This document shows positions 1 through 43,436 of a stretch of DNA of 43,436 bases, one piece after another. Made by a program: the position numbers and the translations under genes. Source of the stretch: a virus; the IMG/VR virus record IMGVR_UViG_3300025616_000002, positions 1 through 43,436 of that record; one strand, 5' to 3'. Numbering within the stretch: the first letter of the stretch is position 1; each line of letters begins with the position of its first letter. A model generated the notes under the pieces. That model made no database searches and was not told the DNA's origin. It was given only the letters and a program-made list of their open reading frames with translations.

Positions 1-127
1 GTTAAATAACAATACACCAAGAGCAACACCAACTCCTATGTATTGATTAAAGTATAAGTTAGCACTTACTACAGGGCCGCCAGTACCAGGAGCCTCAGTT
101 AAATATAATGGTCTAGCTCTTATTGTA
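1..127. repeat. Terminal overlap, left copy (circular closure)
   Basis: These 127 bases are identical to 43310-43436. They lie inside a minus-strand gene that reads through the joined ends in frame, so they mark one physical locus read twice. The length equals a commonly used assembly k-mer, which points to an assembly overlap of a circular or circularly permuted molecule rather than a biological direct terminal repeat. Confidence 0.95.
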
Positions 128-837
128 CCATCAGTATCTGTTTGTACGCCACCTGACATATAATAGCTTTTATTAAGATAGTAATTAACTCCCGGCATTA
201 TAATAGGGTTAGTAATAGTAGTTATCAATCCAGCAGAAACTGTTACTTCTCCTACAGCTCCAGCTACTATAGGGTTAATATCACTTACGTAACCTTGTGC
301 TAGGTTAGGTTCTCGTACTAAATGGCCTACAATAGTAGTAGCCGTAGTTGGGTTATACCAGTTATAAACAGTCGCATAGTTATATGTAGTAAAACCTGTT
401 GTACTTGAGTAAGCCGAAAAGTTAGTATCATTAGCAGGTGTAAGTGAAGTAATTACTGATACATAGTCAGCTGAAGCTAAACCTGCTGTTAATATATTTA
501 AGTTAGGTGCAGTATAATTAGCTGTTAGAGGGCTATTAACTAATGTTATTATATCACCAGGATACATTGTAACACTAGCCTTTACTTGTAGCTTATTATA
601 TCCACCAGAAGTTATTCCTGAATAACCTCCTGAACCTGTTCCTGTACCGCCACTTCCAGTAATACCAGAGTAGCCTGCACCACTATTTAATAGTAAACCT
701 GTTTGTGTAAGTATAGCATTAACAGCTAACTGTAATACATTCATACTGTTATATAATACAGATAGTTCCCCATAAAGCTCTTGGTCAGTAGTTCTAGGGC
801 TCATAGGTAACTGCATATTAACTTGGCTAGTAAACAT
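1..837 (-). CDS. Virion protein of unknown role, N-terminal 279 residues (gene continues at 43309)
   Basis: The gene starts at the minus-strand ATG at 837, with AGGAG about 10 bases upstream, and runs off the left edge with no stop. Because the window closes on itself, it continues at 43309 and stops at 43253, giving 297 aa in all. Residues 1-50 look helical. Residues 52-80 form a Gly/Ser/Thr-rich linker with two YSGIT copies. The remainder is rich in Thr, Asn and Tyr and looks beta-stranded, as in many tail or fibre components. It starts 12 bases after the tail hub gene ends and precedes the internal virion proteins, so it belongs to the late structural operon. I recognise no family; tail appendage or head decoration are both possible. 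Confidence 0.8.
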   Translation of the reverse strand, partial: MFTSQVNMQLPMSPRTTDQELYGELSVLYNSMNVLQLAVNAILTQTGLLLNSGAGYSGITGSGGTGTGSGGYSGITSGGYNKLQVKASVTMYPGDIITLVNSPLTANYTAPNLNILTAGLASADYVSVITSLTPANDTNFSAYSSTTGFTTYNYATVYNWYNPTTATTIVGHLVREPNLAQGYVSDINPIVAGAVGEVTVSAGLITTITNPIIMPGVNYYLNKSYYMSGGVQTDTDGTIRARPLYLTEAPGTGGPVVSANLYFNQYIGVGVALGVLLFN

Positions 838-849
838 TACTTAGTACTC

Positions 850-3018: not shown

Positions 3019-3027
3019 AGTAATAAC

Positions 3028-3330: not shown

Positions 3331-3371
3331 AGTATTTCTCGCTTAGTATCTAGTATAAGTGTAAAAAAGTA

Positions 3372-3986
3372 TTAAGTAATTTGACTCATTACTAGCAGTC
3401 GGAAGTTATCAGCTGATATTTCTCTGAATCTACTGTACTCCTCATCTTTACCTATTAGTTTAAATATCTGCGCGGCAGCATCATCTGTAACTGCCATGCT
3501 ATATAAGTCTGCTATCCAACTACTGTAGCTAGGTGTAACTCCTGTACTTCCTACATCTGGATTAGAGTAGTAACCTATTTTAACTTGTCCACTTGTTTTA
3601 GATGTTCTCAAGTTAATAGCATTACCAACACGGTAGTAATACTCTGGAAATTCTTGCTGATAACCATTCATGATTATATCAGCTGGTACTTCTTGGTAGT
3701 TATCTATAGGAGTAACTGTAGCTGGTACTAAAGGTTCATCTCTTATGTATAGTAATGCTCTAAATCTAACAAAAGGTGTTAGCGAAGTATCTATACTATA
3801 CCGATTATCTATGGTGCTAGTACTAACTAAACCTGTAATCTTTACTTCTTTAAGGTCTTTAGGAAACTGCTCTAACTGATGTAGTCGCAGAGTTGCTTTC
3901 TTAATGCAGTATATAGTCTCACTAACTAAGTCTGGCCTGTTAGTAATACTATATACATCTGTTATTAAATCAGCTAGAGCCGTCAT
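3372..3986 (-). CDS. Head-tail (neck) adaptor protein
   Basis: A 204-residue protein. Its N-terminus (MTALADLITDVYSITNRP, then KKATLRLHQLEQFPKDLKEV) matches the pattern I know from podovirus adaptor proteins that sit between the portal ring and the tail hub: helical N-terminus, a central beta region (residues 50-135) and a helical C-terminus ending near FRLLVMSQIT. Role by analogy with P22 gp4 / T7 gp11: joining the portal to the tail after packaging. It lies two genes after the capsid gene and upstream of the hub, the expected place. An AAGG ribosome site precedes the ATG. Assigned from pattern and position, not from a catalytic motif. Confidence 0.7.
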   Translation of the reverse strand: MTALADLITDVYSITNRPDLVSETIYCIKKATLRLHQLEQFPKDLKEVKITGLVSTSTIDNRYSIDTSLTPFVRFRALLYIRDEPLVPATVTPIDNYQEVPADIIMNGYQQEFPEYYYRVGNAINLRTSKTSGQVKIGYYSNPDVGSTGVTPSYSSWIADLYSMAVTDDAAAQIFKLIGKDEEYSRFREISADNFRLLVMSQIT

Positions 3987-3998
3987 ATTTATACCTTG

Positions 3999-4586: not shown

Positions 4587-4623
4587 TTTATTACCTTATT
4601 TATAGTAGTTAATCACGTTGGTA

Positions 4624-4659
4624 TAAAAAGAGTGCCAGTATTGAGTACTACCTGACACT
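4624..4659 (-). terminator. Rho-independent terminator after the capsid gene
   Basis: On the minus strand AGTGTCAG (4659-4652) pairs with CTGGCACT (4638-4631) over eight base pairs with one G-U, separated by a 13-base loop, and is followed by CTTTTTAT. It sits just after the major capsid stop codon and before the ribosome site of the next gene. Partial termination here would give extra capsid transcript relative to downstream neck and tail genes. Confidence 0.65.
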
Positions 4660-4695
4660 TAAAGTTATATCACCGAGGAGATTGGTAGTAGCTTA

Positions 4696-6066
4696 TTAGC
4701 TCATATTCCATAACATAGCACAAGCTGGAGGATTCTTACATAACAAAGTTACTTCAGTAGTAAGAGTTCCACCAACAGCATCAATACCGGAATCAACTGG
4801 GTCAAGGTCACGCATATTAACGTTAAACTCACGGTTCTGAGTTTTACGGTCACCAAGGTAAGCTAACTTAATAGCAGCAGGGTCAACTACTAATGCAGCT
4901 TTAGCCCACATAGGGTTAGAGTTAAACAGTGGATGTTCAATAATCTTAAAGTTACCACGAGCAGTATGGAACTCGGAGAATTGTAAGCCCCAAGCTGTTT
5001 CTTGTGTTTGCAACCAAATAGTACCAGAAGCTTTACCAATGTTATTAAGTATGCGCTTAGAAGCACCACCTACAAACATAAGACGCTCATTGGCATGTTT
5101 AGGGTCTGAAGCTTGGTTAAACACTGGGTCTAAAGCAGTTTCAAGAGTAGCAAATGCAGTACTTATGTTAGCGCCTGATAAAGAACCAGTAGTAATAGTA
5201 GTTACGTTAGCTGCTGCATAAGAGGAAGGGTAGTTACTTAACTGACCTATGATACTAATAAGTCCATCCATCATACGTCTTGGTTGAGTACCATTCACTC
5301 CACCGTTTGAGTAACCTAAAGCTTTTTGTCCAAAGATAATAGCTTTCTCAATATCAGTAGCATGGAAAGCCATACAATCTTGACGACTCTCAGCAACAGT
5401 ACTATCACCAGCTGCAACTTGTGTAGCTCTAACTGAATCAGAGATAGTCCAAGTATTACGGAAGATTTGAGTATAGTTACTTAATCTTACAGGCATAATA
5501 CCAAGAGCTGCAGGTCTGTTACTTGCTTCAGCGTAAGCAGAACCAATTTGGTATAAAGTCATACCAGAAGCCAAAGCTACTGTTAATGTACCTGAACCTT
5601 GGTTACTAGCATTACGTGAAACAGTGATACCAGTACCAGAGTTAACGGTTTCAATAATAACTACTTCACCTGTAGGTACGCCAGTAGTATTCATAACTTG
5701 CATTACCATACCAGGAACTAAGTTATTAGTACCATTTGCTGCGCAAGCAAGAGTATCTTGAGTGCTCATAGGAACAGCAGTAGTTGCAGAGCCTGGAGCA
5801 GCGTTTAAAGTAAAACTAGGAAAAATCATAGTCTTAGCGAAGTAACCATGCTCATACTGTAGAGCTATTTCATCGCCTAACATAGAAGTTAAGCCGAAAA
5901 GCGTAGCAGTACCATTAGGCATAAGGCGCATAATAGTAGCACTAAAACTCTTACGAGCTAAGTCTGTTTGTAACCCCATGATGCTAGCTTGTGTGCCACC
6001 AGCATATGAAAGTAATGTACCAGCTATACCGCCAGCTGAGTAAGCGTTAGTAATAGGTAATGCCAT
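4696..6066 (-). CDS. Major capsid protein (HK97 fold, DUF5309/SU10-like)
   Basis: A 456-residue protein directly downstream of the scaffold gene. Residues 31-80 (DLARKSFSATIMRLMPNGTA, then LTSMLGDEIALQYEHGYFAK) and 200-270 (IFRNTWTISDS, FHATDIEKAIIFGQKA, RRMMDGLISI) follow the pattern of DUF5309-type capsid proteins, the spine helix preceding a conserved gly-rich turn. Residues about 83-180 form a beta-rich, Thr/Gly-rich segment (PGMVMQVMNTTGVPTGEVVI), probably an inserted or elongated surface subdomain. The C-terminal half carries KRILNNIGKAS and TEVTLLCKNPPACAMLWNM. It would form the icosahedral shell. The leader has AAGGATACTACTC before the ATG, a stem-loop upstream (6107-6142) and a terminator downstream, fitting high expression. 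Capsid role is firm; the exact family is less so. Confidence 0.88.
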   Translation of the reverse strand: MALPITNAYSAGGIAGTLLSYAGGTQASIMGLQTDLARKSFSATIMRLMPNGTATLFGLTSMLGDEIALQYEHGYFAKTMIFPSFTLNAAPGSATTAVPMSTQDTLACAANGTNNLVPGMVMQVMNTTGVPTGEVVIIETVNSGTGITVSRNASNQGSGTLTVALASGMTLYQIGSAYAEASNRPAALGIMPVRLSNYTQIFRNTWTISDSVRATQVAAGDSTVAESRQDCMAFHATDIEKAIIFGQKALGYSNGGVNGTQPRRMMDGLISIIGQLSNYPSSYAAANVTTITTGSLSGANISTAFATLETALDPVFNQASDPKHANERLMFVGGASKRILNNIGKASGTIWLQTQETAWGLQFSEFHTARGNFKIIEHPLFNSNPMWAKAALVVDPAAIKLAYLGDRKTQNREFNVNMRDLDPVDSGIDAVGGTLTTEVTLLCKNPPACAMLWNMS

Positions 6067-6106
6067 GAGTAGTATCCTTGTAACTTAATTAGAATCAAAT
6101 GATGTT

Positions 6107-6142: not shown

Positions 6143-6162
6143 TAAAGAGTTGTGCTATATTA

Positions 6163-6963: not shown

Positions 6964-7293
6964 CTAGTAGTTATATAACCCTGCATCTTCTCCCTCATAT
7001 ATACCAGAAGCCTTATCTTGTAACCCTAGCTTACTACAGTTAGATACTTCAATTAGATATATTAGTAATCCTATCTGACCTTGTAGTTCTGCTTCTCTTT
7101 GTAGGTAAGTAAGAGGGTTATTAGCATCGTACTTAAGATTAAGTTTTTCTTCTGCTAAGCCTACAAGTTCATTCTGTAGTACAGCTTCTTGTAACGTACT
7201 TAGTATTTGACCTTCTATAGTATCTTTAGCACTAAGGTCATAAGAAGTAAAGGTACTTACTTTAATTGGTTTATCTAAGTTACTTGGTATCAT
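6964..7293 (-). CDS. Small helical protein between portal and scaffold, unknown function
   Basis: A 109-residue acidic protein without a recognisable family. Residues 22-55 (STLQEAVLQNELVGLAEEKL) and 63-90 look like two amphipathic helices, consistent with a small oligomerising protein. The start has GGAGATACAACA upstream. It lies 35 bases after the portal gene and about 90 bases before the scaffold gene, so it is probably a head-assembly accessory, but nothing in the sequence proves this. Confidence 0.72.
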   Translation of the reverse strand: MIPSNLDKPIKVSTFTSYDLSAKDTIEGQILSTLQEAVLQNELVGLAEEKLNLKYDANNPLTYLQREAELQGQIGLLIYLIEVSNCSKLGLQDKASGIYEGEDAGLYNY

Positions 7294-7328: not shown

Positions 7329-9368
7329 TTACTGGCCAGGTTGTGGTTGTGGTTGTTGCTGGTTACTAGCTCCCATTCCCATTATCTGTTCTATGATAGT
7401 AGGTGCTGGGGTATTAGATACTCCTGTTTTATTAGGAGTCCCGTCTGGGTTCATACCAAACTGTGTAAGTTGTGGTTGAGGCGGTAACTGTTCTTGCTTA
7501 ATGTCTGGGTTATCTTTCATAACTTGCATTATAGTTTGTTGCCATTGCTGTACAGCTTGCTCATATTGTACTTGACCAGGAGGTTTCTCAAACTCACTAA
7601 CTTGTGCGCCTTGAGTCTTCAGAAGGTAACTGATTAAAGCACCCATGTTATATTGCGATGAAACCTGCGGAGAACTACCTAGTATCTGTAAAGCTACTTG
7701 AAAACTATCTGCATTAATAAGCTTATCACTAGGTGTAAGTCCATCAGATACTTTGAACTGAGTAACAGCTGTACGTAAAGTTATAGGGTCAATAGCAACT
7801 TCTTGTTTCTGATTACCGTTATATAAGGTTGTACCTCCTTGGAACTGTAGTATGTTTAAGCGTAGAATCTCTTTAAGTGGTGAGAATGTTTGTGCTTCAA
7901 TAACTATACTAATAGATTGAGGTCTACTAGAAGCATTACTCATAACATCGGCATACTCATGCTGTGTTTTATTACCTTTAACAAACTGACCTTGTTGGCT
8001 CTTATTTTGACCGCTGATAGTATCAGCAAAACTTGTGAACATAGGTAACTGTTGTAATATAACAGAACTCTGGTCATCTCTAAAAGGAAATGGAAATACA
8101 GATTCAGCTAAGTTCTTACCATAAGCAGAAGGTCTTACTGGTATCTTAGCAGAAGGGTTAGGGTTATTAATATCAGCCTCACGTATACGGCTTGGGTCGT
8201 ATAAGGTTCTGTCACTAATAGCTCTACGCCTAGATGCTAGTACTGAGGTCATTAAAGCGCTACTTACATCCTGTATAGGTTTAATGTTACTAGCAAATGA
8301 TTTAGTCTGGTAGTCAAGACCATCTTCAAGTGGTTGGCATATAAGAATAGGCAAGTAACCGTGAGCATTAGTTTGTCTCTCAATGTAAATAGGTATATCA
8401 TTAACAAATACAAACTTCCATACTTGCGGAGTGTTAGGACTAGGTACTCGTAAACCAAAGTCACTAGGTATAATACGACCATATAAGGTAGTTACTTCGT
8501 ATTGGTTATGGTACTGTATTTTGCTGTGAGTCTCACTAGCAGTAGCCCAAGCTTCCCAGTTAGTAGATGCGCGAACATCCCTGTTAAGTAAAGCTTCTGA
8601 GTTAAGTTGTGGAGTAAAATAATTTTGATAGCTAATATTTCCTGACTCAAAAGCAGCTACTATATTATCTACCATTTTATCTGGTAACTTATGAATATAA
8701 TCCTTAAGTGCAACTCTTGACATTAACTCAATGTAACCTACGAACTCTCCTTTAGAGTGTACTTGGCTAGGACTTACACGCGTATCGAAGATAAGGTTAT
8801 AAGGGTCTAACCTGCGTACTACGTTACCATCCCAAATAACTTCTTTAGGTTTACCTTCGGTAGTACTGTAACCTGTATCCGTCTCTAGTGAAGCTGTTAC
8901 CTTAGATTCCCAAGTAACTTCTACTGCTGCAATGTTGTACTTAAAACCATCACGAAAGAATAAGTTAAGTTCCCTTGTCCATCCTCCCTTAACTGCTTGG
9001 TCTTCAAGTATAGTCTCCATCTGCATAGCTGCATCTTCGTACTTGGGACTTGCAACTACTCCAAATATTGGATTACCTGATAAAAATACTGATGATTGAT
9101 AAGCTACTGCTGTTTCAACCTGCGGCATAACTATAGGTACTGTAATGTTTTGTAACTTAGTAGCATCACCATAACGATTAGCTATCTTAGCTATACGATG
9201 TTCACCAGTTTGGTCTAGCTCTCGCATGTAAGCTAAATCAATATTTCGCATCTGGTCACGTATGTTCCAATGCTTCTTAGTTAAGTCATGACAAGACTTC
9301 TTGAAGGCAACTATACCTTCCTGTGCTTTCTTACTTACAAGTAATGCGGTTGTAGGGGTTGTAGCCAT
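7329..9368 (-). CDS. Portal protein (head-tail connector)
   Basis: A 679-residue protein immediately downstream of TerL. The N-terminal section (HDLTKKHWNIRDQMRNIDLA at about 27-46, then VPIVMPQVETAVAYQSSVFL and NPIFGVVASPK) and the central section (VIWDGNVVRRLDPYNLIFDT, and LPILICQPLEDGLDYQTKSF) match the pattern of large podovirus portals. These proteins form the dodecameric ring at one capsid vertex through which DNA is pumped. The last 50 residues are a Pro/Gln-rich disordered tail (ending QQQPQPQPGQ), which would lie at the barrel end. Start at ATG 9368 with AAGGATACTACAA upstream. Length is within the range for podovirus portals of the T7/P22 size class. Confidence 0.88.
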   Translation of the reverse strand: MATTPTTALLVSKKAQEGIVAFKKSCHDLTKKHWNIRDQMRNIDLAYMRELDQTGEHRIAKIANRYGDATKLQNITVPIVMPQVETAVAYQSSVFLSGNPIFGVVASPKYEDAAMQMETILEDQAVKGGWTRELNLFFRDGFKYNIAAVEVTWESKVTASLETDTGYSTTEGKPKEVIWDGNVVRRLDPYNLIFDTRVSPSQVHSKGEFVGYIELMSRVALKDYIHKLPDKMVDNIVAAFESGNISYQNYFTPQLNSEALLNRDVRASTNWEAWATASETHSKIQYHNQYEVTTLYGRIIPSDFGLRVPSPNTPQVWKFVFVNDIPIYIERQTNAHGYLPILICQPLEDGLDYQTKSFASNIKPIQDVSSALMTSVLASRRRAISDRTLYDPSRIREADINNPNPSAKIPVRPSAYGKNLAESVFPFPFRDDQSSVILQQLPMFTSFADTISGQNKSQQGQFVKGNKTQHEYADVMSNASSRPQSISIVIEAQTFSPLKEILRLNILQFQGGTTLYNGNQKQEVAIDPITLRTAVTQFKVSDGLTPSDKLINADSFQVALQILGSSPQVSSQYNMGALISYLLKTQGAQVSEFEKPPGQVQYEQAVQQWQQTIMQVMKDNPDIKQEQLPPQPQLTQFGMNPDGTPNKTGVSNTPAPTIIEQIMGMGASNQQQPQPQPGQ

Positions 9369-9421: not shown

Positions 9422-10978
9422 TTAAAACAGGCAGTTATCTTCCATGCTCCATACTTTACTGGTATCGTAGTCTTCATTACCAAATGGGGAGTTTATGACA
9501 ATGAGGTGTTCTAGTTCGGTAAGTACTCGTGGAGCATAGGTTAATAAGTCTAATATACCATCAGTATTATCTCTCTTAAGTGGGTTAAATTGAGTTATTT
9601 GGCTGTAAACTTGACTCTTAGTATCTGGGTGTATTACTATCTCACCAGCTATAAGCTGTTTAAACATGGTAAGTATTCGTGTATTTTTCGCAAGACTACC
9701 AGAGTATATAGGTACAGCTTGTATACCTGTAAGTCCTAACTGCATAGCTGTTTGCTCAAACCAATAACATAGTGAGTACTGGTATGCGTTAGCCTCTATA
9801 ACTATGAGGCCAGTTCCGTTCTTAGTAGCCATTAATATGGCCTGCTTAATAGTGTCGCCTGGACTTAACTTATCTTCTATTAGAGAAGTAAGTACTGGCA
9901 CTCCTTCATATAAGTGAAAGCAACCAATAGATACAAGGTCACTATTAGACTTGTCATTAGATGGGTCAATAACAATGAACGAGCCAGCAGAGATACTATC
10001 AGTATACTTATATTCACCAATCCTATTGAGGTCGATAGCATTATTAGTACTTGCATGTTCGTCATTAAGTACCTCACTATAAAAGATTTCTGGGTAACCT
10101 GCTGCTAAGTCAGAAGCAAACTCTTCTTCTAACTGTTTGATAGGTACAAGTGCTTCCCACAAGCTAGTACCATCAGCTAAGATAGCTCCAGCTATGAACT
10201 TAACCCATGTAGGGTTATGCTTTAGGCGGCGCAAGATACTCCACTTAGTAGGATACATGTTACCTAGGAAGATATACATACACCCAGTTTGAGCCTTGGC
10301 TTTCATGCAAGTACCTATCATCCATTTCTCAAGGTCAGTACTTACTATCTGTGACTCACTTGCTTCTCTGGTTTGTATGTCATCGAATACCATTACATCA
10401 GGCCGAGAGTTCTTAAGTACGATACCTCGAACACCAGTACCAACACCTATCCCTTTAAGTATTATGTTACGTCCTCTGAAGCCAAACTTCTTAAGTTCCT
10501 GAGTATCCTTCTCTAGCCCTACTCTCCAGTTACCAAATACCTTAACTATATTATCTTCATCAAGCATATCTACTATATCAGCTATAATGTTCTCAGCTAG
10601 TGAGGCAGAGGCAGCTATTATAAGTATAAACTTCCTATCTGTGAATAGTATACAGTATAGTATAAATATCTTCATTAGTGAGGTCTTAGCAAAACCTCTA
10701 GGTAAGCCTAGTGCTAACTTACTAAAGTCACGAGATTTAGCTACAAACCCAAGTAACCAAGTCCAGATAGCAAGGTAAGTTACAGGGAACTCATGTTCTA
10801 TAACTTCCGGCATAGCTAGTGCTGCTAGGAAGTCAAGGTTAGTTCTTGCTAAAGTATGTACTTCTTGTTGTTCGAAACTAGCATCCTTAGTTTTTTCTGC
10901 TGCCAGCGTAGTTATTTGTTCAGTTGTTAGTTCTGTAAGCCCTAAGGCATCTTCTAATGATACTACTTGTCTCGCCAC
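9422..10978 (-). CDS. Terminase large subunit (packaging ATPase-nuclease)
   Basis: A 518-residue protein with a Walker A-type GLPRGFAKTS (residues 91-100), Walker B VMVFDD (195-200), coupling region near FLGNMYPTKW (237-246), and an RNase H-fold nuclease with acidic residues at VIDPSND (D338), IVIEANAY (E395) and NTDGILDLL (D473 or D477). It translocates DNA into the procapsid through the portal and cuts concatemers. The start is GTG at 10978, preceded by AAGGATACAACTAGG, and overlaps the upstream small gene by 16 bases, implying coupled translation. It is a full-length protein, and both ATPase and nuclease domains appear intact. Confidence 0.93.
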   Translation of the reverse strand: MARQVVSLEDALGLTELTTEQITTLAAEKTKDASFEQQEVHTLARTNLDFLAALAMPEVIEHEFPVTYLAIWTWLLGFVAKSRDFSKLALGLPRGFAKTSLMKIFILYCILFTDRKFILIIAASASLAENIIADIVDMLDEDNIVKVFGNWRVGLEKDTQELKKFGFRGRNIILKGIGVGTGVRGIVLKNSRPDVMVFDDIQTREASESQIVSTDLEKWMIGTCMKAKAQTGCMYIFLGNMYPTKWSILRRLKHNPTWVKFIAGAILADGTSLWEALVPIKQLEEEFASDLAAGYPEIFYSEVLNDEHASTNNAIDLNRIGEYKYTDSISAGSFIVIDPSNDKSNSDLVSIGCFHLYEGVPVLTSLIEDKLSPGDTIKQAILMATKNGTGLIVIEANAYQYSLCYWFEQTAMQLGLTGIQAVPIYSGSLAKNTRILTMFKQLIAGEIVIHPDTKSQVYSQITQFNPLKRDNTDGILDLLTYAPRVLTELEHLIVINSPFGNEDYDTSKVWSMEDNCLF

Positions 10979-17621: not shown

Positions 17622-19460
17622 ATGAGTACAATTAACAAACAACCTAAAGCTACTGTAGCTGAGTTACTAGCTAAAGCAAGGGCGCGGCGAGATGCCTTAC
17701 TAGCAGAACAAGCAGCAAGTACTAACCAAGCACCAGTACCTCCTATGGCACTTACTGCTATCACAGAAGCTATAATAGAAGAACTGCATGGAGTATCTGA
17801 ACTGTTAGTACCTACACAGGAACCAGCTACCAGCTTACAGCGTGATGATGTTACTACCAGTGTTGATAAGTACGGTAATACTATTGAGTACAATAAAGAA
17901 CAAGCTAAGTTCGTAGAGATAGCTACTAGTAAGGAATCATGCATACTAATAGGTGCGGCTGGAACTGGTAAGACTACTACTATGCGCGGTGTTATGGAAG
18001 CACTGATAACTCAGGTAGGTATACCAGTACTTGCTAGTACCCACCATAAGCATCTGGTAGATGGTACTCCTGGGATACTGTGTTGTGCTTATACTAGGCG
18101 TGCAGTACAGAACCTTAAGCGTGCTATGAGCGCAGAGATGCAAGATAACTGTATTACTATACATAAGTTACTTGAGTACCAACCAACTTACTATGAAGTA
18201 ATAGATGAGAAGACTGGTAGTCTTAAGAACACTATGAAGTTTGAACCTGCTAGGTCTAGCTTCAATCCATTACCTAGTAGTATCCATACTATAATAATAG
18301 ATGAAGCTAGTATGGTCAGTGTGGAACTATATAACCTACTAATGGATGCTATCAGTCATGGTATACAGGTTATATTCCTAGGTGATATACAACAGTTACC
18401 ACCAGTATTTGGAGAAGCTATACTAGGCTTTAAGTTACTAGAACTACCAGTAGTAGAACTGGTGCAAGTATACAGACAAGCACTAGAAAGTCCTATCATT
18501 AGACTTGCTCATAGGATACTAAGTGGTAATGTAATACCGGTAGAAGAGTATGCTGAGTGGAAGTACGAAGGTCAGCTTACCTTACATCCTTGGAAGCGTA
18601 AGTTAGATGTACTTAACGCAACCCATACAGCGGCGAAGTTCCTACAACTTCATATCAATGAAGGTAAGTACGACCCTGACCAAGATGTAGTACTAATACC
18701 TCATAATAAGAAAGATACCTTTGGTGCTCATGACCTTAACTTACATATAGGTAACTTCCTAGCTAGACGTGATGGTAGAGTTACTTACGAAGTACTAGGT
18801 AGCATGGGTGCTAAGAAGTATTTTAGCATAGGAGATAAGGTACTATATGAGAAAGAAGATGCTATCATTACAAGTATCAGTGCTAATGGTGCTTACGGTG
18901 GTAAGGACTACCAAGTAGCTAGTACTACACTAGACTACTGGGGACATGACCAAGGTAGTCCAGTTAAGAAAACTACTGGTATGTTTAGTATGGATGAAGG
19001 TGTGGAACTAAGTGCTGATGATATAGATAGCTTAATGGACAGCATGGCTAATACTACTGAAGACAGAGGTAGACAAGCTAGTCATGTTATAACTATGGTA
19101 CTACAGAACTCTGACGAAGAGATTAGTATTAGTATTGGAGCTGAGATATCAGAGCTGGAGTTTGGCTGGGTTATTACTGTGCATAAGTCACAAGGTAGTG
19201 AGTGGCGTAAAGTGTACTTCATTGTACATCAAAGCCATGCTACTATGACTTATAGAGAGTTACTATATACAGCATGTACCCGTGCTAAGGAAGAACTGTA
19301 CGTAATCTGTGAGCCTGATACGTTTACTAAGGGTATAACTAGCCAACGTATTAAAGGTGAAACCTTAGCAGAGAAGGCAGCCTTCTTCCAGAACAAGCGT
19401 AAGGGGCAAGTAAGTAAGTACAAACAGACTAGTATGTTAGAGCATTTGAGCCTAGCATAA
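17622..19460 (+). CDS. SF1B DNA helicase (RecD/Dda-like)
   Basis: A 612-residue protein with all main SF1 motifs: Walker A GAAGTGKTTT (111-120), Ia near LCCAYTRRAVQNL (153-165), Walker B IIIDEAS (224-230), III GDIQQLP (254-260), IV VQVYRQ (281-286), V VITVHKSQGSEW (517-528) and VI YTACTRAKEELYV (549-561). Residues 1-95 are an Ala/Glu-rich, partly disordered extension, and about 395-510 hold an insertion where RecD2 and Dda carry an SH3-like domain. Such enzymes unwind DNA 5'-to-3' and help replication start or fork clearance. AAGGATACTAAAAA precedes the ATG. Confidence 0.93.
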   Translation: MSTINKQPKATVAELLAKARARRDALLAEQAASTNQAPVPPMALTAITEAIIEELHGVSELLVPTQEPATSLQRDDVTTSVDKYGNTIEYNKEQAKFVEIATSKESCILIGAAGTGKTTTMRGVMEALITQVGIPVLASTHHKHLVDGTPGILCCAYTRRAVQNLKRAMSAEMQDNCITIHKLLEYQPTYYEVIDEKTGSLKNTMKFEPARSSFNPLPSSIHTIIIDEASMVSVELYNLLMDAISHGIQVIFLGDIQQLPPVFGEAILGFKLLELPVVELVQVYRQALESPIIRLAHRILSGNVIPVEEYAEWKYEGQLTLHPWKRKLDVLNATHTAAKFLQLHINEGKYDPDQDVVLIPHNKKDTFGAHDLNLHIGNFLARRDGRVTYEVLGSMGAKKYFSIGDKVLYEKEDAIITSISANGAYGGKDYQVASTTLDYWGHDQGSPVKKTTGMFSMDEGVELSADDIDSLMDSMANTTEDRGRQASHVITMVLQNSDEEISISIGAEISELEFGWVITVHKSQGSEWRKVYFIVHQSHATMTYRELLYTACTRAKEELYVICEPDTFTKGITSQRIKGETLAEKAAFFQNKRKGQVSKYKQTSMLEHLSLA

Positions 19461-26886: not shown

Positions 26887-29160
26887 ATGAACTTACTATT
26901 TCTGGGTACTTCAGAGGATGTACCTTACATGCCTAGACTCAAAGGTTGTCTAAAACATGTAGGTAGTACGTACTTACTTACTGAACCAATCAGTACACTG
27001 TACGAACTAATAGCGTATTGTAATAAACGTAAGGTAACAGGGATACTTAGTACACGGAGTGACGTGTTGGCTAAGCTAACTTATGACCCTAACGATGCAG
27101 TTGAGTATAAGAAAGATGGCACACCTAAGAAGTTAAAACTTCCCAGTGTTGATAACTACGCAGGTAGTATGTTCACTGTAGGTGAGGATACAGGCATAGA
27201 ATTGGTAGTAGTAAATCCACTTAAACAATTACTTACTGTACCATTTGGCGACTTCATGCTAACTAGGTATGCCAGTAAGTTAATAGCTAAAGATAACTGG
27301 TATCAAGCTACTGACTTCAGTTGGGAGATAGTAACTCCTAAGACTGCGGCTGATTACCTAGAACTATTCGCTACAGCAGACCTAATAGCACTTGATATTG
27401 AAACTGTAAGTACTCCTATTCCAGCCATAACTTGCGTAGGTTACTGCGGTGTATGGTACGATGTTGCCTCTGCCTCATACCATAGTCATAGTATAGTTAT
27501 ACCATGCACTGATGATTACTTACATGAGTACATTCGTAAGTTTAATGCATTACCTGTACCTAAAGTAATGCAGAATGGTAAGTACGATATAGCTTATCTT
27601 GCTAGGTTTAATGCTCCAGTAAGTCATTGGTTCTGGGATACAGCTACTATGCAACATTGTTGGTATAGCGAACTACCTAAGGACTTAGGTACACTAGCAG
27701 CGTTTTATATACGTGAAGCTAGATATTGGAAAGGAGAAGCTAAGTACCTTAGTACTGACATTGAAAGATATTATCTATATAATGCTAAAGATACTTGGAA
27801 CACAGCTAACGTAGCTATGGCTTGGATACTGGAAGCACCTAAGTGGGCTAAGGATAACTACCTTATGGAGTTTCCACTTAACTATCCTTGTCATCTTAGT
27901 GAACTTACTGGTGTGCGTGCTGATGTGTGCTTACTTGCAGATGCTAGACGTGTTCAGGAAGCTGTAGTTGAAGACCAGTTACAAGTACTACGTGTAATGA
28001 CTGATAGTGTTGGATTTAATCCTAACTCACCAGTACAAGTTAAAAAACTGTTGCAAGTACTGGGTTGTGGTGACCTTACTTCCAGTGATGATGCGAGTCT
28101 TACTAAGGCAAGTTTCCGCCACCCACTTAACGCATTGATACTAAGTAAAATAACTAAGATACGTAAAGCGCGTAAACTTATAAGTACTTACTTAGATGAA
28201 AGTAAGTTGTTTCGGGGCAGAGTACTGTACTCCTTAGTACCACATGGTACTGATACTGGTAGGCTTGCATCGAGAGAACACCACTTCTGGTGTGGTTTAC
28301 AGATACAGAACATACCAAGAGGCAAAGGTGCTGGTACAGTTAAGTCCTATATGGTAGCTGATACTGGCTTCCTTATGGCAGAAGCTGACTTTGCACAGGC
28401 AGAGAGTCGTGGTACTGGATACATTAGTGGAGACATTAATTTAATAGAAGCTGTGGAAAGTGATAGAGACTTTCACGGCATCAATGCAAGTAAGTTCTTT
28501 GGTATACCTTACGAAGAAATAGTAGATACCAACGGCAAAACTATTAACAAAGAACTACGCGACCTTAGTAAGCGTACTAACCATGGAGCTAACTATAACA
28601 TGGGAGACTTTGTTATGTTAGAAACTATGGGAGAAGCTAACGTAGCTAAAGCTAAACGGTTACTAGGACTTAATAAGCTATGGTCTCTTAAGCAAGTATG
28701 TCAGCACTTACTAGACCAGTTTGCTAAGACTTACCCAAGAGTTAAGAACGATTACCAGACTTATGTTAAGTACCAAGTAGGTCTAAGTAAGATGCTTACA
28801 GGTGCTACTGGTTGGACTAGATACTGCTTTGGTAAGCCTAACCTTAACAAACCAGCACTTAACGCTTATGTAGCTCATTGCCCACAAAGTCTTAATGCAA
28901 TGATACTTAACAAAGCTTACATGAAAGTGTTCTATGAGATATGGTTACTTAATCATGATAACTTTAAACTATGTGCGCAAGTACATGATAGTATATTGTT
29001 TCAATACCGTATAGGTCATGAGTATCTAATAGATATGGTTAAAGCTTGTATGGAAATACCAACAGAAGTTACTGATATAAGTGGCACTACTAGAACTATG
29101 CTTGTACCTGTAGATATTAACGCTGGCCTTACTAGCTGGGGAGATAAGAAAAATGAATAA
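26887..29160 (+). CDS. DNA polymerase I (family A) with 3'-5' exonuclease domain
   Basis: A 757-residue replicative polymerase. Exonuclease motifs: ALDIET (D170, E172), MQNGKYDIAYL (N230, D234) and YYLYNAKDTW (Y298, D302). Polymerase motifs: TGRLASREHHFWCGLQIQNIP (457-477, quoted in part), A AEADFAQAESR (D501), B RDLSKRTNHGANY (558-570), and C QVHDSI (H700, D701). Motif C has S in place of the usual E. Residues 1-145 are an extra N-terminal region without clear homology. No 5'-3' nuclease domain is present, as in T7 polymerase. AAGGATACTAAT precedes the ATG. It would copy the phage genome with the nearby helicases. Confidence 0.95.
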   Translation: MNLLFLGTSEDVPYMPRLKGCLKHVGSTYLLTEPISTLYELIAYCNKRKVTGILSTRSDVLAKLTYDPNDAVEYKKDGTPKKLKLPSVDNYAGSMFTVGEDTGIELVVVNPLKQLLTVPFGDFMLTRYASKLIAKDNWYQATDFSWEIVTPKTAADYLELFATADLIALDIETVSTPIPAITCVGYCGVWYDVASASYHSHSIVIPCTDDYLHEYIRKFNALPVPKVMQNGKYDIAYLARFNAPVSHWFWDTATMQHCWYSELPKDLGTLAAFYIREARYWKGEAKYLSTDIERYYLYNAKDTWNTANVAMAWILEAPKWAKDNYLMEFPLNYPCHLSELTGVRADVCLLADARRVQEAVVEDQLQVLRVMTDSVGFNPNSPVQVKKLLQVLGCGDLTSSDDASLTKASFRHPLNALILSKITKIRKARKLISTYLDESKLFRGRVLYSLVPHGTDTGRLASREHHFWCGLQIQNIPRGKGAGTVKSYMVADTGFLMAEADFAQAESRGTGYISGDINLIEAVESDRDFHGINASKFFGIPYEEIVDTNGKTINKELRDLSKRTNHGANYNMGDFVMLETMGEANVAKAKRLLGLNKLWSLKQVCQHLLDQFAKTYPRVKNDYQTYVKYQVGLSKMLTGATGWTRYCFGKPNLNKPALNAYVAHCPQSLNAMILNKAYMKVFYEIWLLNHDNFKLCAQVHDSILFQYRIGHEYLIDMVKACMEIPTEVTDISGTTRTMLVPVDINAGLTSWGDKKNE

Positions 29161-32371: not shown

Positions 32372-32826
32372 TACTTAACTCCTTTACTGGTACTGGTACT
32401 GGTACTAGTACTGGTTACTATTTTCTTAGTATCAGTACCACGTACTTTATCAAATGAACGCATACCACCTATGCCAAGTAAAGCTGTAAGTACTGTTGTT
32501 GCCATATCATTACTTAGTGGAGGTAACGGCGGTAGTCCAAAGCATACTGCTATCCAACTAAGTAATGACGTGCCGAAGCTTCCATAAGCAAGGGCTATTA
32601 CGCCAACCCACATAGCTGCAGGTCTAGCACCAGCTACCAGTAATGAAGAATGTTTAGCTTCCTCTGTGTTAGCAGTTATTTGTGCAAGTTGTAAGTTATA
32701 ATCATTACTAATAAGGCTAGCAGCTTTAGCTAACTTACCTTGTAACTCCGTATTAGCATCAGGGAATATCTTATCTAAACTGGTCTTAACTAAGTCAAAG
32801 CCAGCAGTAAATGGGTCAAGCGACAT
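32371..32826 (-). CDS. Holin (GTA_holin_3TM-like)
   Basis: A 151-residue protein. Residues about 65-125 hold the conserved block RPAAMWVGVIALAY, a hydrophobic stretch through LLSWIAVCFGL, and a further helix ending LLGIGGMRSFDKVRG, matching the 3-TM holins named from gene transfer agents. It would make the membrane lesion for endolysin release. I place the start at ATG 32826, 8 bases after GGAG; an upstream TTG at 32853 has no such site. The C-terminus is a Ser/Thr repeat (TSTSTSTSTS) encoded by a 6-bp GGTACT-type tandem repeat. It is coupled to the endolysin through TAATG. Confidence 0.85.
   Translation of the reverse strand: MSLDPFTAGFDLVKTSLDKIFPDANTELQGKLAKAASLISNDYNLQLAQITANTEEAKHSSLLVAGARPAAMWVGVIALAYGSFGTSLLSWIAVCFGLPPLPPLSNDMATTVLTALLGIGGMRSFDKVRGTDTKKIVTSTSTSTSTSKGVK
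32385..32415. repeat. 6-bp tandem repeat in the holin C-terminus
   Basis: TACTGG is repeated in tandem about five times with one variant unit. It encodes the alternating Thr-Ser tail of the holin on the minus strand. Copy-number change by slippage would lengthen or shorten the tail by two residues per unit without a frameshift. Confidence 0.75.
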
Positions 32827-32900
32827 ATTAGTATCTCCAAAAATTAGTATCAAGGTTATGGTTATTGGCAGCGTCCTTGCTACCCTAGCATATTATTTTA

Positions 32901-34511: not shown

Positions 34512-37500
34512 TTGTTAGTTCCTGTTATTGTTGGTTCTGCTGGAGTGTTAGTAAAATCTTTCATTCTAGCTCCGCCTAATAGTTCTTGCATACCTTGTGA
34601 GTAAGGTGATTTTAACTTGTCAGCTAAAGCATTAGCTTGAGCCGTATTAGCAGACTTATAAGCTTTCATTATAAACTTGTTAAAGTTCTTCTGGTCACCA
34701 CCAGCTTTAACATAACCATCTAAGAAGTTATCCATTTGGTCTTTACCTGGCATATGATTACCAACCATAGTACTTTTAACTGTTTCACTAAGCTCTTTAC
34801 GTATACGAGTATCTCTTGATTGGTAAGCAGTAGACCTATAAGCTAAGTCAAGAGCTAAGGCTTCATCTAATGGTTTACCTCCAGCTATGCGCCCAAGAGT
34901 TACTAAGCTAAGCATATCATTACTTGCACTTAGTTCACCAGAGTTCTTAGTAGTAAAAGCTCTATGCGCAGAGTTAGTGAAACCTTCCAGCGTTGCTGCT
35001 AACCCAGATAGTGGGCGGTTAATACCATTATGTTCTAAGCCTTGAAGTAACGTAGTCCAACTTGCTCCACCATCATTAAGCTTATTAAATACTTCCTTAA
35101 GGTTACCAAAGAACTTAGTACTAGCACTTACTATTGGAATATCAGCAAAGCTAGTAGGTAGTATGGTAAGATTCCTTGGGTTAATATCTCCACGAGAGTA
35201 TAAGTTAACCTTTAGGTCAGGGTGGAATAAACCTAAGGCGCTTGAACCTGCACCATACATAACCCACTCAGCTGCTTCCTTATTAACAGAGCCATACAGC
35301 GCAGAGTACAAGTCTTTATTATGCTTATTACCTTCTGCTTGTCCAACTAAGTACTGGTTAACAGCATGAAAAGCTGGTAGTCCATTCATACCATAGATAG
35401 TACCTTGTAGTCCCATAGCTAATGCTACTGATTTATTACTTCCTTCAGCTAAATGACGTAACATCTGTTGAGCAAAGTTTATTTGGTAAGTTTGAAATAA
35501 ACCTACTGCTTGACCTATCGGGCCTTGAAACATAAGTGGGCGTTGCGAAGCTAAGTAGTTACCGTTGACTCTATTAACAGCAGCTCCTATGTAACTATCT
35601 GCAAGGTTAGCATCTAATAAGCCATTATCGGAAGCTAACGTAGTAAGTTTTCTCATAACTCTAGCAGTAATAAAGCGTGTATACTCTTCAGCAAGTTGGT
35701 TACCCGTATACTTAGCGGTCTTATCTAAGAAAGCCATAGTCTTATCATAGCCTTTGTTGGTTATATCTAACAACTGTGAGCCAGTCTCTCTACCAGTAAT
35801 AGTAAAAGCCTCATTAACAGCATGGTACTCAACAGTATGTCTAGTAGTAAAACCTGCTTGGGCTTCTTTTAACCTAGCAGCTTCATCAAACCAATCTTTA
35901 TGTGCATCAGCTATAAGTTTCTGTACAGTAAAAATAGGGTCGTTAGTACCAGGAACTTTAAGATGTGTAAGTCCTGCAAGTTCGCCAACTATACTTGAGT
36001 TACCTTTAGATATAGCATTAGCTATTGAGTGTATTTCAGAACCTCCAAGTATACTCATACTAATAAGGTTATTAGCTGCCTGTAGTACATCAGGCTTAAG
36101 CATTACACTTGCCATAAGTGCATTAGACCGTTGTACAAAGTTAGTTAATGCGCCCTTACCTGCAGTGTGGTTAGCATAAGCGTGAAGTGCTGCATTGTAA
36201 TAACCTGTATTAATACCAGCTTCTTGAAATACCCTGTTAATTTCATCTAAATCAGCTGGGTTCTTTGACGCTCTTATACTATTAGTTAGCGTGTTCCAGA
36301 TACTACTAACATGGTCATCCAAAAAGTTGTTCATAGTAGTCCAATTACTAGCATCAACTGAGTTAGATTTATCAAGCATAGTACGTATCAGTTGTTGATA
36401 AGGGTCATGAGCTACAGCATTTTGCGCACTACTTGATATACTACTACGGCCTACATCACTAGTACTAAGACGTGTATAGTTGTTACTAAGTTTTCTTAGT
36501 TCTGCTATCTCTTTAGCGTATCTAGTACTTACAGCTTCTCGTACCAGTTGACGTTCTTTCTCTAAGTGCCAGCCTTCTAAACCATCTACTAACTTGTTTG
36601 CATCTGTAACTGGAAAGTAAGGCGTACTGATACCTTTATTAAATAAGGCTGAATCTATATAAGTTTCATGTAGTGTAAGGTCATGTTGGTAATCACCGTA
36701 AGCCTTATGGAAGTCTTCAGAGTCTTTCTTAGTTATAACTCTAAACCTTCCTGTTTCAACTTGACTTACTAGCTTATCAAGCATAACATCAGTAGCTGCA
36801 TGTATCATCTTAACGTGGCCAGTACTTGTTATATCTTTGTCAATAACAAAGGCTACTTTAGGATATAACTTAGGGTCTACTGGTGGCACATATATAGTAT
36901 TAGGGTCTTTTAAATCTTGTAATCCTTGTACTGAGCGTATTCTTTTTAAGTGACCTATACGCTCACCATTAAGTTCTACGTGTGCGGCAAAGAAGTCACG
37001 TACTATAGGTGAAATAATAGGAATACTTGCAGGTGCATCAGGGTCAGTAGGTACATAAGCCTGTGGTTGTCTAACTCCCTTAGTTCCTGCAGCTTGAGCT
37101 TCTTGGTATGCTGCTGCCGCTTCTTCTTCTACTTTGACTCCTCGTAATACTATTGAGTTACCATCAGTGCTAAGTACATACCGCTCAGGCGTGTTCTGTA
37201 TTCTATTAAGAGTTGTACTTAGTTCTAACGCTGCGCCTTGATTGTTTCTAAGTTGTGAAAATATTGGCGTAAGTTTCTCAGTAGCTTTGTTAATACGAGC
37301 AGTAATAACATTGTGAGTAACTTGTCCTAACCTACCCATGTGTGCATCTATCTGACCGTAGATACCATTACTAAAGCTATATCTTCCTCCACCGTTTTGT
37401 CTACTACTAGCAGACAATGTAATCTTATCAGGTAAGTCAAAAAAGTATTGGTCATGCTCAGCAAAGAGTCCAGCTGTAGCTATCTTAGTTGCAAGTGTAT

Positions 37501-39691
37501 TAGCAACTTGTAGTTGTTTGATTGCTGCCATACCTTTAAGTACGTTGCCAGTTACATCCGTAATAGGCGTATCATCATAAAGTAACTTAACATGTTGAGG
37601 TTCAAGTAATACATCATAAGGATGCTTAGCAGTCTGGTAACCTAAACCTGACATTTTATCATTATACGTCTTAGCATGGAACTGGTTAGCAAGAACATCA
37701 TCTTCAATGTTAGTAGCAAATTTAGTTTTTTCAAGATAACCTACAGTTACATTAAGCCTTCTAGCTATCTCACCATTAGTAATAAGTCCAAGTACGTGTT
37801 TACCATCTACCTTAGCACCAGTAGGAACCTGTAAGGTACGTAGTTCATCAGCCAAAGCTGCCTTGCGCTCTATAATATGACTAAGTAAATCTTCTCGGCT
37901 ACGCATGAAAGTAGCAGAGCCATCTTTATCCATAAGTATATGAGTAAAATCCGCAGGTGCAGTATTAGCAGATTCCATATAAGCTTTTTCTAGTGCAGGT
38001 AAATCATTAGTATACAGTGTTGCATTATCAGGTAACTTATCACTATGGTACGCGTGTAAGTATCTTGCCTCAGCTTCTTCTTGAGTAACTGCGCCTACAT
38101 CCCAGAACTTATTACTATCCTTACCTAGTCCGTAGCGTACAGGTATAAACTTACTCTCACCAAAGCGTATGCCTTCAGGAGTTACAGTAACCTTTTGTCC
38201 AAACTTAATAAGCTTATCAACTACTCCTAAGGCACGAGGTACTAAGTCTTCAAGTATGTTACCACCAACAGGCATTTCACCAAATACTTTTAAGTACCTA
38301 GTGTTAGTATTTCTAACTCGTTCTACTTCAGCAGGAGTTGTTTTAGGGCTTAGTAACCTACTACCTATCTGCTCTACTTCAGCTTCTAACTTACCTACTG
38401 TATGAATGTTGCCTACTTCTCGTAAGCCAAGCATAGCGTCACCAACCTGTCTTGTATCAGCCATACCTAGTACTTCGTTAGCAACCTTGTTACCAACAAC
38501 ATCATCACCATTAGACATAGCTCTGCTGTTATTACGTACATCGTTAGCTATACCTGCACGCTTAGCTTCACCAGCTTGTTGTGGCCTGTTGCCGTAAGCA
38601 GTTACTTGTTCCGGAGTAGGTTCAGGTATGTTGAATCTATCTTCCATAGCCATAATGTTTTTATCACTATGGTTAGCTCCATTACCTAAATCATTTCTAT
38701 GAGTAAATGGCATTAGTTCAATATCACTAGCTTCGCGGGATTTCTTTAACATACTTGATGATTTAACAGCAGTAGTTACAGCACCTACAGCTCCCATAAA
38801 CATAGCACCATGTAAGATGTTCCAACCTAAATCCTCTACGTCCATATCATCTAATATAGGAGATTTAAACATAGTTGCTGCTATAGCTGTTTCAAAGATA
38901 GCTCCTTGTATTGCGTGTTCTCCAATACCTGCTGCTACCGACCTGATAGAGTTAGTATTTATGTAACTGAAAGCCGCAGAGCTAGAGTTAATCTCAGCCT
39001 CAGCTGCTGCTAAGAACCTTCCTTGAGTAGGTATAAGTAAACCTGTTGCCTCACTCATGCCAGCACCCATGTAACCACCCTTAGCCATAGTCAGTGCTTT
39101 AGTGCTCCAGTTATAGGCTTTCAGCGCAGCAGTACCAGGTATTAATGAAGTAGCTACAAACCCTGCTATATCACTTGACTGCTTGTTATCAGCATAGTAT
39201 TTACCTAAGTCACTATCTAGTGATTCCATAAACTGTTGAGTATCATTCTGAGCTATATCTATACCTCCCCAATTAGCTATAGCAGCCGCTGTATTATAGA
39301 AGCTATTAGCTCCAGAAGCTAAGGAAGCCTGTACGAAGTGTCCATCTGTAAGTCCACTAATAGCCCCAACTACTCCACCTACTACAGCACCTGGAAGTCC
39401 CAAAGCTATGCCGCCAATAGCTCCACCAACAGCTCCACCAACAGTAGCTTTAGCTCCATCTATATAAGGGTCAATTATGCTTTGTTTAAAATGGTCTATT
39501 AATGACGTATCACCTGTAGCCGCTATCTGGTGGTTGTTGGCTTGTACTAAGTAACTAGGTAAGTTATCATAAGCGCTACCAGACTCAGCTACAGTCTCTG
39601 GAGTTAGTACTGTAGATTTACGGTTACTTGTAGGTAATGTTGGGTCTTCTATGTTAGGTTCTATATTCTGGTTATTAGTATCAGTACTCAT
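34508..39691 (-). CDS. Giant internal virion / DNA-ejection protein (1727 aa)
   Basis: A 1727-residue protein, 12% of the genome. Residues 1-60 look disordered. Residues 84-113 are a glycine zipper (AVGGAIGGIALGLP and GAVVGGVVGAISG), a motif of membrane-inserting pores. The rest is mostly helical; about 1190-1290 (VMLKPDVLQAANNLISMSIL) and 1390-1480 (GPIGQAVGLFQTYQINFAQQ) recall conserved segments of large podovirus internal virion proteins. Such proteins leave the head first and build a channel across the envelope. I saw no clear lysozyme motif. It overlaps the genes on both sides. Confidence 0.75.
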   Translation of the reverse strand: MSTDTNNQNIEPNIEDPTLPTSNRKSTVLTPETVAESGSAYDNLPSYLVQANNHQIAATGDTSLIDHFKQSIIDPYIDGAKATVGGAVGGAIGGIALGLPGAVVGGVVGAISGLTDGHFVQASLASGANSFYNTAAAIANWGGIDIAQNDTQQFMESLDSDLGKYYADNKQSSDIAGFVATSLIPGTAALKAYNWSTKALTMAKGGYMGAGMSEATGLLIPTQGRFLAAAEAEINSSSAAFSYINTNSIRSVAAGIGEHAIQGAIFETAIAATMFKSPILDDMDVEDLGWNILHGAMFMGAVGAVTTAVKSSSMLKKSREASDIELMPFTHRNDLGNGANHSDKNIMAMEDRFNIPEPTPEQVTAYGNRPQQAGEAKRAGIANDVRNNSRAMSNGDDVVGNKVANEVLGMADTRQVGDAMLGLREVGNIHTVGKLEAEVEQIGSRLLSPKTTPAEVERVRNTNTRYLKVFGEMPVGGNILEDLVPRALGVVDKLIKFGQKVTVTPEGIRFGESKFIPVRYGLGKDSNKFWDVGAVTQEEAEARYLHAYHSDKLPDNATLYTNDLPALEKAYMESANTAPADFTHILMDKDGSATFMRSREDLLSHIIERKAALADELRTLQVPTGAKVDGKHVLGLITNGEIARRLNVTVGYLEKTKFATNIEDDVLANQFHAKTYNDKMSGLGYQTAKHPYDVLLEPQHVKLLYDDTPITDVTGNVLKGMAAIKQLQVANTLATKIATAGLFAEHDQYFFDLPDKITLSASSRQNGGGRYSFSNGIYGQIDAHMGRLGQVTHNVITARINKATEKLTPIFSQLRNNQGAALELSTTLNRIQNTPERYVLSTDGNSIVLRGVKVEEEAAAAYQEAQAAGTKGVRQPQAYVPTDPDAPASIPIISPIVRDFFAAHVELNGERIGHLKRIRSVQGLQDLKDPNTIYVPPVDPKLYPKVAFVIDKDITSTGHVKMIHAATDVMLDKLVSQVETGRFRVITKKDSEDFHKAYGDYQHDLTLHETYIDSALFNKGISTPYFPVTDANKLVDGLEGWHLEKERQLVREAVSTRYAKEIAELRKLSNNYTRLSTSDVGRSSISSSAQNAVAHDPYQQLIRTMLDKSNSVDASNWTTMNNFLDDHVSSIWNTLTNSIRASKNPADLDEINRVFQEAGINTGYYNAALHAYANHTAGKGALTNFVQRSNALMASVMLKPDVLQAANNLISMSILGGSEIHSIANAISKGNSSIVGELAGLTHLKVPGTNDPIFTVQKLIADAHKDWFDEAARLKEAQAGFTTRHTVEYHAVNEAFTITGRETGSQLLDITNKGYDKTMAFLDKTAKYTGNQLAEEYTRFITARVMRKLTTLASDNGLLDANLADSYIGAAVNRVNGNYLASQRPLMFQGPIGQAVGLFQTYQINFAQQMLRHLAEGSNKSVALAMGLQGTIYGMNGLPAFHAVNQYLVGQAEGNKHNKDLYSALYGSVNKEAAEWVMYGAGSSALGLFHPDLKVNLYSRGDINPRNLTILPTSFADIPIVSASTKFFGNLKEVFNKLNDGGASWTTLLQGLEHNGINRPLSGLAATLEGFTNSAHRAFTTKNSGELSASNDMLSLVTLGRIAGGKPLDEALALDLAYRSTAYQSRDTRIRKELSETVKSTMVGNHMPGKDQMDNFLDGYVKAGGDQKNFNKFIMKAYKSANTAQANALADKLKSPYSQGMQELLGGARMKDFTNTPAEPTITGTNK

Positions 39692-41544: not shown

Positions 41545-41581
41545 GTTAGTATCCTGTTTATTAAATTGTTAAGTTGATATG

Positions 41582-42523: not shown

Positions 42524-42529
42524 GACTAT

Positions 42530-43222
42530 TTACCAGCTAAATAAGTCAGAGAACCAATTACTTATATTACTTGCACCGCTTTGAGTACCAAAGCTAGTTA
42601 AAGGGCCGCTACCATTGAACTCACCACCACTACCAAATATCATATCAAGTACTGACTGTCCTCCTTTAATAGCCATAGGAGCAGCAACAGCAGCCCCAGC
42701 TAGTAAAGGTAACATACCAGCTATACCACTACCACCTAAATTATTAATACTAGGAGCTGTTGTAGTCTGGGTATTTGTAGTGTTTCGCGCATCAGCAAGT
42801 ACTTGTCCTATACTAGAATTAGCTTGGTTATTAATTTGACCGTAGTTAGTAATAGCAGATTGTTGTACAAGTGCTGCTTGTCCTGCTGCCTGTGCCGCAC
42901 CTTGAGTAGCTAGCATATCAGTAGTAGTGTTACTATAGCTACCTGAACCTAGTTGGTCATTAGCTATTTGAGGAAGGTATTGTTGCATAGCCCTATCCAT
43001 AGTAGTAGTAACAGCTGTTGCAGAATCTTTAATTGCAGCATCTTTACTATAAGCTGGGTTATTTATATTTGCTGCAAGAGCTGCATATATTTGGTCACTA
43101 AGAGAGTTCTTACTTGCTGTACTATTAGTCGTACCACCACCTAGGAATACAGGAGCTAAGTTACCTATAATATCGGAAGCTGTACTTAGTGGATTTTTTC
43201 GTAATTCTATTGCATCTGCCAT
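42530..43222 (-). CDS. Small internal virion / ejection protein (putative, 230 aa)
   Basis: A 230-residue protein. Residues 60-145 are Ala/Gln/Asn-rich and helical (AAQAAGQAALVQQSAITNYG), 165-190 are a hydrophobic helix (MLPLLAGAAVAAPMAIKGG) and the end is Gly/Ser-rich closing with NWFSDLFSW. It resembles the small ejection proteins (T7 gp14 or P22 gp7/gp16 type) in size, composition and order: small, medium, then giant protein. AGGATACTAAC precedes the ATG. Function inferred from context. Confidence 0.7.
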   Translation of the reverse strand: MADAIELRKNPLSTASDIIGNLAPVFLGGGTTNSTASKNSLSDQIYAALAANINNPAYSKDAAIKDSATAVTTTMDRAMQQYLPQIANDQLGSGSYSNTTTDMLATQGAAQAAGQAALVQQSAITNYGQINNQANSSIGQVLADARNTTNTQTTTAPSINNLGGSGIAGMLPLLAGAAVAAPMAIKGGQSVLDMIFGSGGEFNGSGPLTSFGTQSGASNISNWFSDLFSW

Positions 43223-43252
43223 GTTAGTATCCTATTGAGTTAGTATCATTGT

Positions 43253-43436
43253 TTAAACTATGTTAGGCCACTGGCCATTAGAGTTTATTATCTGTGTTGG
43301 TGTGCCAGGGTTAAATAACAATACACCAAGAGCAACACCAACTCCTATGTATTGATTAAAGTATAAGTTAGCACTTACTACAGGGCCGCCAGTACCAGGA
43401 GCCTCAGTTAAATATAATGGTCTAGCTCTTATTGTA
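43253..43436 (-). CDS. C-terminal part of the virion protein that begins at 837
   Basis: The minus-strand frame enters from the right edge and stops at TAA 43255-43253. Bases 43310-43436 repeat 1-127, so only 43253-43309 add new sequence: 18 residues ending PGTPTQIINSNGQWPNIV. Together with 1-837 this makes a 297-residue protein. It ends about 30 bases before the next gene's start. Confidence 0.85.
   Translation of the reverse strand, partial: TIRARPLYLTEAPGTGGPVVSANLYFNQYIGVGVALGVLLFNPGTPTQIINSNGQWPNIV
43310..43436. repeat. Terminal overlap, right copy (circular closure)
   Basis: An exact copy of bases 1-127. Removing one copy gives a 43,309-bp circle in which the interrupted minus-strand gene is intact. 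Confidence 0.95.

Follow-up and report, generated by a model that had tools for sequence, protein, structure and literature searches.

The tetranucleotide GATC is absent from all 43,436 bases of the viral DNA analysed here (the window, meaning the whole stretch at its full length), a complete podovirus-type genome from an IMG/VR-type virus record, and selection acted on this four-letter word itself. The loss is real and strong, and as a phenomenon it has precedents in T7-like and other phages; what is added here is an uncultured clade in which GATC content has switched repeatedly and in a nearly all-or-none fashion, together with a lead to an enzyme of the Sau3AI type. We infer that a GATC-directed nuclease of the host is very likely the agent of the loss, and which nuclease this would be is inferred in the same way.

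Counts and null models

As GATC is palindromic, counting on one strand covers both, and the exact count of zero also holds where the 43,309-bp circle closes, a point spanned by the 127-bp terminal repeat. This bears out the preliminary description of the sequence, which had reported the word as missing from the whole genome. The expected number of sites is 151 from base composition, 60 under a first-order Markov model and 94 under a second-order one. Hence, the roughly 150 sites previously anticipated match the composition value, while the second-order expectation is lower but still far from zero. Among the 256 tetramers, GATC is the most extreme under the second-order model (z = -11.6) and the only one with a zero count in the window; common tetramers include GTAC, AGCT, CTAG and CATG, in agreement with the preliminary description.

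In a codon null model, the synonymous codons of 46 genes were shuffled in 300 trials, with the proteins and the overall codon usage held fixed, which yielded 87.9 +/- 6.7 GATC sites and a minimum of 72, against none observed. Aspartate followed by C is encoded by GAC in 70 of 70 cases, compared with the use of GAT in 523 of 644 (81%) before other bases. Likewise, isoleucine after G never employs ATC (0/125; 91/735 after other bases), and serine after xGA never employs a TCN codon (0/14; 416/942 elsewhere). Because this codon switch is absolute in every reading frame, it is the word GATC itself on which selection acted. Chance, codon bias or mutation bias with no selection on the word can be dismissed: the window does under-use ATC as well as some GATT contexts, yet the second-order z-score, the gap between zero and the shuffle minimum and the absolute codon-context switches all stand against such an origin. 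A composition or codon artefact is ruled out by the three Markov orders together with the codon-preserving shuffle. General avoidance of palindromes was likewise rejected, as 6-bp palindromes are under-used in the window (O/E 0.71) but also in relatives that keep GATC.

Further compositional features of the window concern other words. GGWCC occurs once against 25 expected, the family median O/E being 0.31; AGGCCT, GTGCAC and GCATGC are missing, and GGTACC occurs once. In the coding regions, aspartate before T is encoded by GAC in 68 of 125 cases, compared with a GAC share of merely some 10% when A or G follows, and AATT is found 82 times against a codon-shuffle expectation of 251. The frequent GAC before T and the low AATT may reflect avoidance of GATT/AATT contexts or of the one-step mutational neighbours of GATC.

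Genome organisation and route of loss

Judged by homology, the window is a podovirus distantly related to Pseudomonas phage PaMx41 (Fredfastierviridae), in which homologues of its portal, terL, head protein and polymerase are all present. The nearest cultured kin are Aeromonas phage P5, Polaromonas phage Tiera and the Pseudomonas PaMx41 group (Jamesmcgillvirus), with terminases 31-35% identical to that of the window. Terminase homology with the PaMx41 group extends over about 90% of the length, and terL identity to PaMx41 amounts to only about 31-33%. Transfer of a host from the isolate relatives was rejected on account of this distance, and genome collections were equally uninformative about the host, as the best matches there, none of them close to the window, were binned metagenomic contigs of phages with 51-60% identity. 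The minus-strand half of the genome carries the packaging and structural genes and the plus-strand half the replication genes; the latter also comprise a PD-(D/E)XK exonuclease, a Sak4-like AAA protein, a DUF3987 primase/helicase and an Rv2179c-like exoribonuclease. The main features are:

1..127, plus strand, other copy at 43310-43436: direct terminal repeat, 127 bp
3372..3986, minus strand: structural-region gene
4696..6066, minus strand: major head protein (phrog_1328)
6964..7293, minus strand: small structural-region gene
7329..9368, minus strand: portal protein (PF23899 SU10 portal, phrog_15554)
9422..10978, minus strand: terminase large subunit (phrog_38)
17622..19460, plus strand: Dda/RecD-like helicase of the early region
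26887..29160, plus strand: DNA polymerase family A
31832-32853: holin and M15 peptidase
34508-39691, minus strand: 1,727-residue protein in the packaging/structural half

The terminal repeat is probably an assembler overlap on a circular map, with a unit of about 43,309 bp; one open frame runs off the left end of the window and another is found at the right end. No tRNA genes were found in the window, and the isoleucine codons in the coding regions of this phage are ATA (487), ATT (282) and ATC (91).

The route of the loss can be followed in the nearest relative found, a 10-kb fragment (L002/G001) whose terminase is 84% identical to that of the window and which holds 18 GATC sites against 35 expected. 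Twelve of these sites can be aligned to the window, where all twelve are altered, nine of them silently with both residues unchanged; the usual replacements are GACC, GATA or GATT. In the terminase gene, the relative's GATC reads GACC at 10033, and in the portal gene GACC at 9002 and GACA at 8213. The small gene at 6964..7293 has GATA at 7291, GACC at 7239 and GATA at 7224; in the major head gene the word is replaced at 5827, 5707, 5560, 4945 and 4851, and in the gene at 3372..3986 it has become GACT at 3932. Since matching fragments of this virus in further records (L001, L037 and L162) are also devoid of GATC, an assembly error is an unlikely cause of the absence.

GATC across the clade

GATC was counted in contigs of about 45 relatives, gathered with DNA polymerase family A among the queries and including the partial contigs G006 (5 kb), G001 (10 kb) and L297 (20 of 42 kb counted). 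Most relatives display an O/E of about 0.6-1.1, and a few are intermediate at 0.25-0.5. GATC is completely missing from the window, the near-identical G003, G004 and G005, G019 and G038 from the same sample, G027 and the short fragment G006, and it is nearly gone from P5 (3 observed/154 expected) and G041 (12/164). These losses are scattered over the portal-plus-terminase and the terminase trees and correspond to at least eight state changes; the tree placement of P5 and binL302, on long branches, is uncertain. In the clade as a whole, GATC is by far the tetramer palindrome most often lost. Other palindromes have nearly disappeared from single relatives, namely GTAC from G008 (L239-L241; 8/113) and G029 (L294-L296; 8/78), and G041 is devoid of most of its CCGG.

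L036/G014, which lacks a portal homologue and matches the terminase only in part and at 26%, did not enter the family analysis. This unrelated 33.8-kb viral contig (L192, L193; IMGVR_UViG_3300028826_000104) has lost many palindromes together: GATC (0/67), GGCC (0/47) and GCGC (0/26) are missing, as are CCGG and CGCG, and CATG is reduced to 7/110. In addition, the portal matches of G027 (C1:340-2265, TAG) and G029 (C1:28354-30261, TGA and TAG) cross in-frame stops, which may reflect stop-codon reassignment, pseudogenes or errors.

Candidate agents of the loss and known systems

No D12 or N6/N4 adenine methylase was found in the window and 49 related records (50 phage records), and no methylase, restriction or antirestriction family was recognised among the window genes scanned, early region included. 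Nor was a nuclease gene of suitable specificity recognised in the window, many early genes of which have no assignable family, and no gene cluster was found that is common to independent GATC-free lineages and rare elsewhere. A phage-encoded cause was thus rejected, as no recognised gene family explains the loss and no gene tracks it. As the loss is not accompanied by any particular phage gene and all 50 records lack an adenine methylase, the cause probably lies in the host and not in the phage.

Purging by a GATC restriction-modification system of the host, of the Sau3AI, MboI or DpnII type, is the course of events that we hold to be probable, if only just. Each new GATC would be a place where the phage DNA could be broken on entry into the host or during replication there, and a variant in which a synonymous codon turns GATC into GACC, GATA or GATT would yield more progeny. 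Purifying selection by a host enzyme cutting unprotected GATC would then continue until no site is left. The evidence comes from the metagenome bin nzgw467. A relative in this bin has 1 GATC where 65 are expected, and it belongs with the window to the same supported group of seven members. A 464-residue protein of nzgw467 matches the Sau3AI endonuclease model NF040973 with 430.6 bits (cut-off 300) as well as the crystallised Sau3AI (PDB 4pxg, E 8e-54), and its gene is directly followed by that of a C5-cytosine methylase. Among 41 genomes, i.e. nzgw467 and 40 related ones, the endonuclease exceeds the cut-off in nzgw467 itself and in no other. With sizes of 0.4-1.0 Mb, the nzgw467-related genomes tentatively suggest Patescibacteria-like organisms. 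The link between this relative and nzgw467 is one of metagenome binning, which does not prove infection. No match to MutH/Sau3AI, Dam or DpnII was found in the bins of two further GATC-poor relatives (L300, L302). Rusinov et al. (2018, PMC6286503) report GATC to be under-represented in each of 46 phages from hosts that encode endonucleases for this site. The losses of other palindromes in G008, G029 and G041 are as expected from differing restriction specificities. The 119-kb contig PBMU01000004.1 (L302, L303) is binned as Rhodospirillaceae and has a GATC count of 1/55; the same phage terminase match occurs on it twice, about 45.6 kb apart, which suggests that a 45-kb phage was assembled head to tail.

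A serious but less probable alternative is that the host is a bacterium of the gammaproteobacterial type with Dam and MutHLS, so that no dedicated restriction system is needed. Fast-replicating phage DNA would be under-methylated, and MutH, activated by mismatches or acting at a low level, would nick or break unmethylated GATC, leading to counter-selection of the sites as in T7 and phiX174. Bearing on this is a small, hand-picked panel of 13 podophages, which are not independent of one another (T7 and T3 are close); the Dam/MutH status of the panel hosts is assumed, that of E. coli being confirmed in control genome sets. All seven podophages of Dam/MutH hosts are depleted of GATC (observed/expected: T7 6/141, T3 10/142, SP6 53/174, phiAS7 1/159, P5 3/154, VP4 0/180 and LIMElight 0/172), and none of the six whose hosts are taken to lack Dam/MutH is (gh-1 230/248, phiKMV 194/242, LUZ24 224/297, PaMx41 183/237, Tiera 154/190 and SIO1 127/185). 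The same division runs through the kin of the window, where the Aeromonas phage P5 is depleted and the Pseudomonas and Polaromonas phages are not. Two T7-like members of the panel, gh-1 (L379) and VP4 (L382), were also seen to be devoid of CTAG (0/27 and 0/79, respectively), VP4 being without GATC as well. The phage phiX174 is known to be free of GATC, a direct fitness cost via MutH has been proposed (PMC5014478), and lower phage yields in dam- mutH+ cells are attributed there to Deschavanne and Radman (1991, as cited in PMC5014478). Moreover, the dominance of GATC among the losses of the clade is not predicted by mixed restriction specificities alone and is better explained by Dam/MutH. On the contrary, nzgw467 yielded no match to Dam, and its protein of the MutH family is the Sau3AI-family restriction enzyme; other GATC-poor relatives are binned with alphaproteobacteria, where no Dam or MutH matches were found, and some relatives lose palindromes other than GATC.

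Taken together, the 13-podophage panel brings mismatch repair close behind restriction, which is ranked slightly ahead because the bin with the Sau3AI-family enzyme is the nearest to the clade of the window; GATC restriction-modification is hence slightly the more likely, and the two are not separated for the window. The preliminary description had ascribed the loss to avoidance of a GATC-cutting or Dam-directed process of the host, and this is well supported by the silent and convergent character of the loss, the lack of a responsible phage gene and the host-linked behaviour of known phages. Its narrower forecast, a host with an MboI/Sau3AI- or DpnI-type system, fits the Sau3AI-family system in the relative's bin but is not established: some podophages of Dam/MutH hosts (VP4, LIMElight, phiAS7 and T7) show an equally near-total loss, so that such a host needs no GATC restriction enzyme, and no DpnI-type gene was found in a search that had no positive control.

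Two other host- or phage-borne processes appear improbable. The first is a host population alternating between strains of the DpnI type, which cuts methylated GATC, and of the DpnII type, which cuts the unmethylated word, a pair known from Streptococcus pneumoniae. Only a GATC-free genome would be safe in such a population, which would explain why the loss is complete and not even a few sites are tolerated. Nevertheless, the DpnI and DpnII families gave no match in five bins bearing relatives, the DpnI search having no positive control, and complete loss is also seen in phages of Dam/MutH hosts (VP4, LIMElight). The second, which we consider just as unlikely, is another process directed at GATC, such as phosphorothioate-based (Dnd) restriction or a phage GATC nuclease that destroys host DNA. 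Most small early genes of the window have no assignable family, leaving room for an unrecognised nuclease, but the search for a gene cluster shared by independent GATC-free lineages speaks against it.

A broader proposition, which we put forward as rather doubtful, is that GATC content constitutes a fast-switching, nearly all-or-none host marker in an uncultured podovirus clade, some hosts of which may be Patescibacteria-like with Sau3AI-type systems. Lineages would repeatedly enter hosts with GATC-cutting systems, and the word would be purged within the divergence that separates terminases 84% identical. In a metagenomic phage, the absence of a word leaves a legible record of a nuclease in a host that has not been grown, and such a record can guide host prediction for a clade almost without isolates. 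In addition, with close relatives that have or lack GATC and its repeated changes of state, the clade constitutes a natural experiment in which, once hosts are known, the restriction and mismatch-repair readings can be tested against each other.

In comparison with known systems, the window resembles PaMx41, Tiera and P5 in the kinds of packaging and replication modules found in their annotated records, but it differs in its GATC count of zero, as PaMx41 and Tiera retain the word and P5 has three sites. The window also resembles phages in which restriction-site avoidance has been described (Rusinov et al. 2018, PMC6286503; the staphylococcal podovirus phiAGO1.3, PMC6346686), in that a 4-bp type II site is lost; unlike in those phages, the endonuclease, of the Sau3AI family, is known only via the bin of a relative. 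With T7, T3 and phiX174, whose hosts possess Dam and MutH, the window shares the near or full absence of GATC from a short phage genome, and it departs from them in being Fredfastierviridae-like and in having no recognised RNA polymerase gene.
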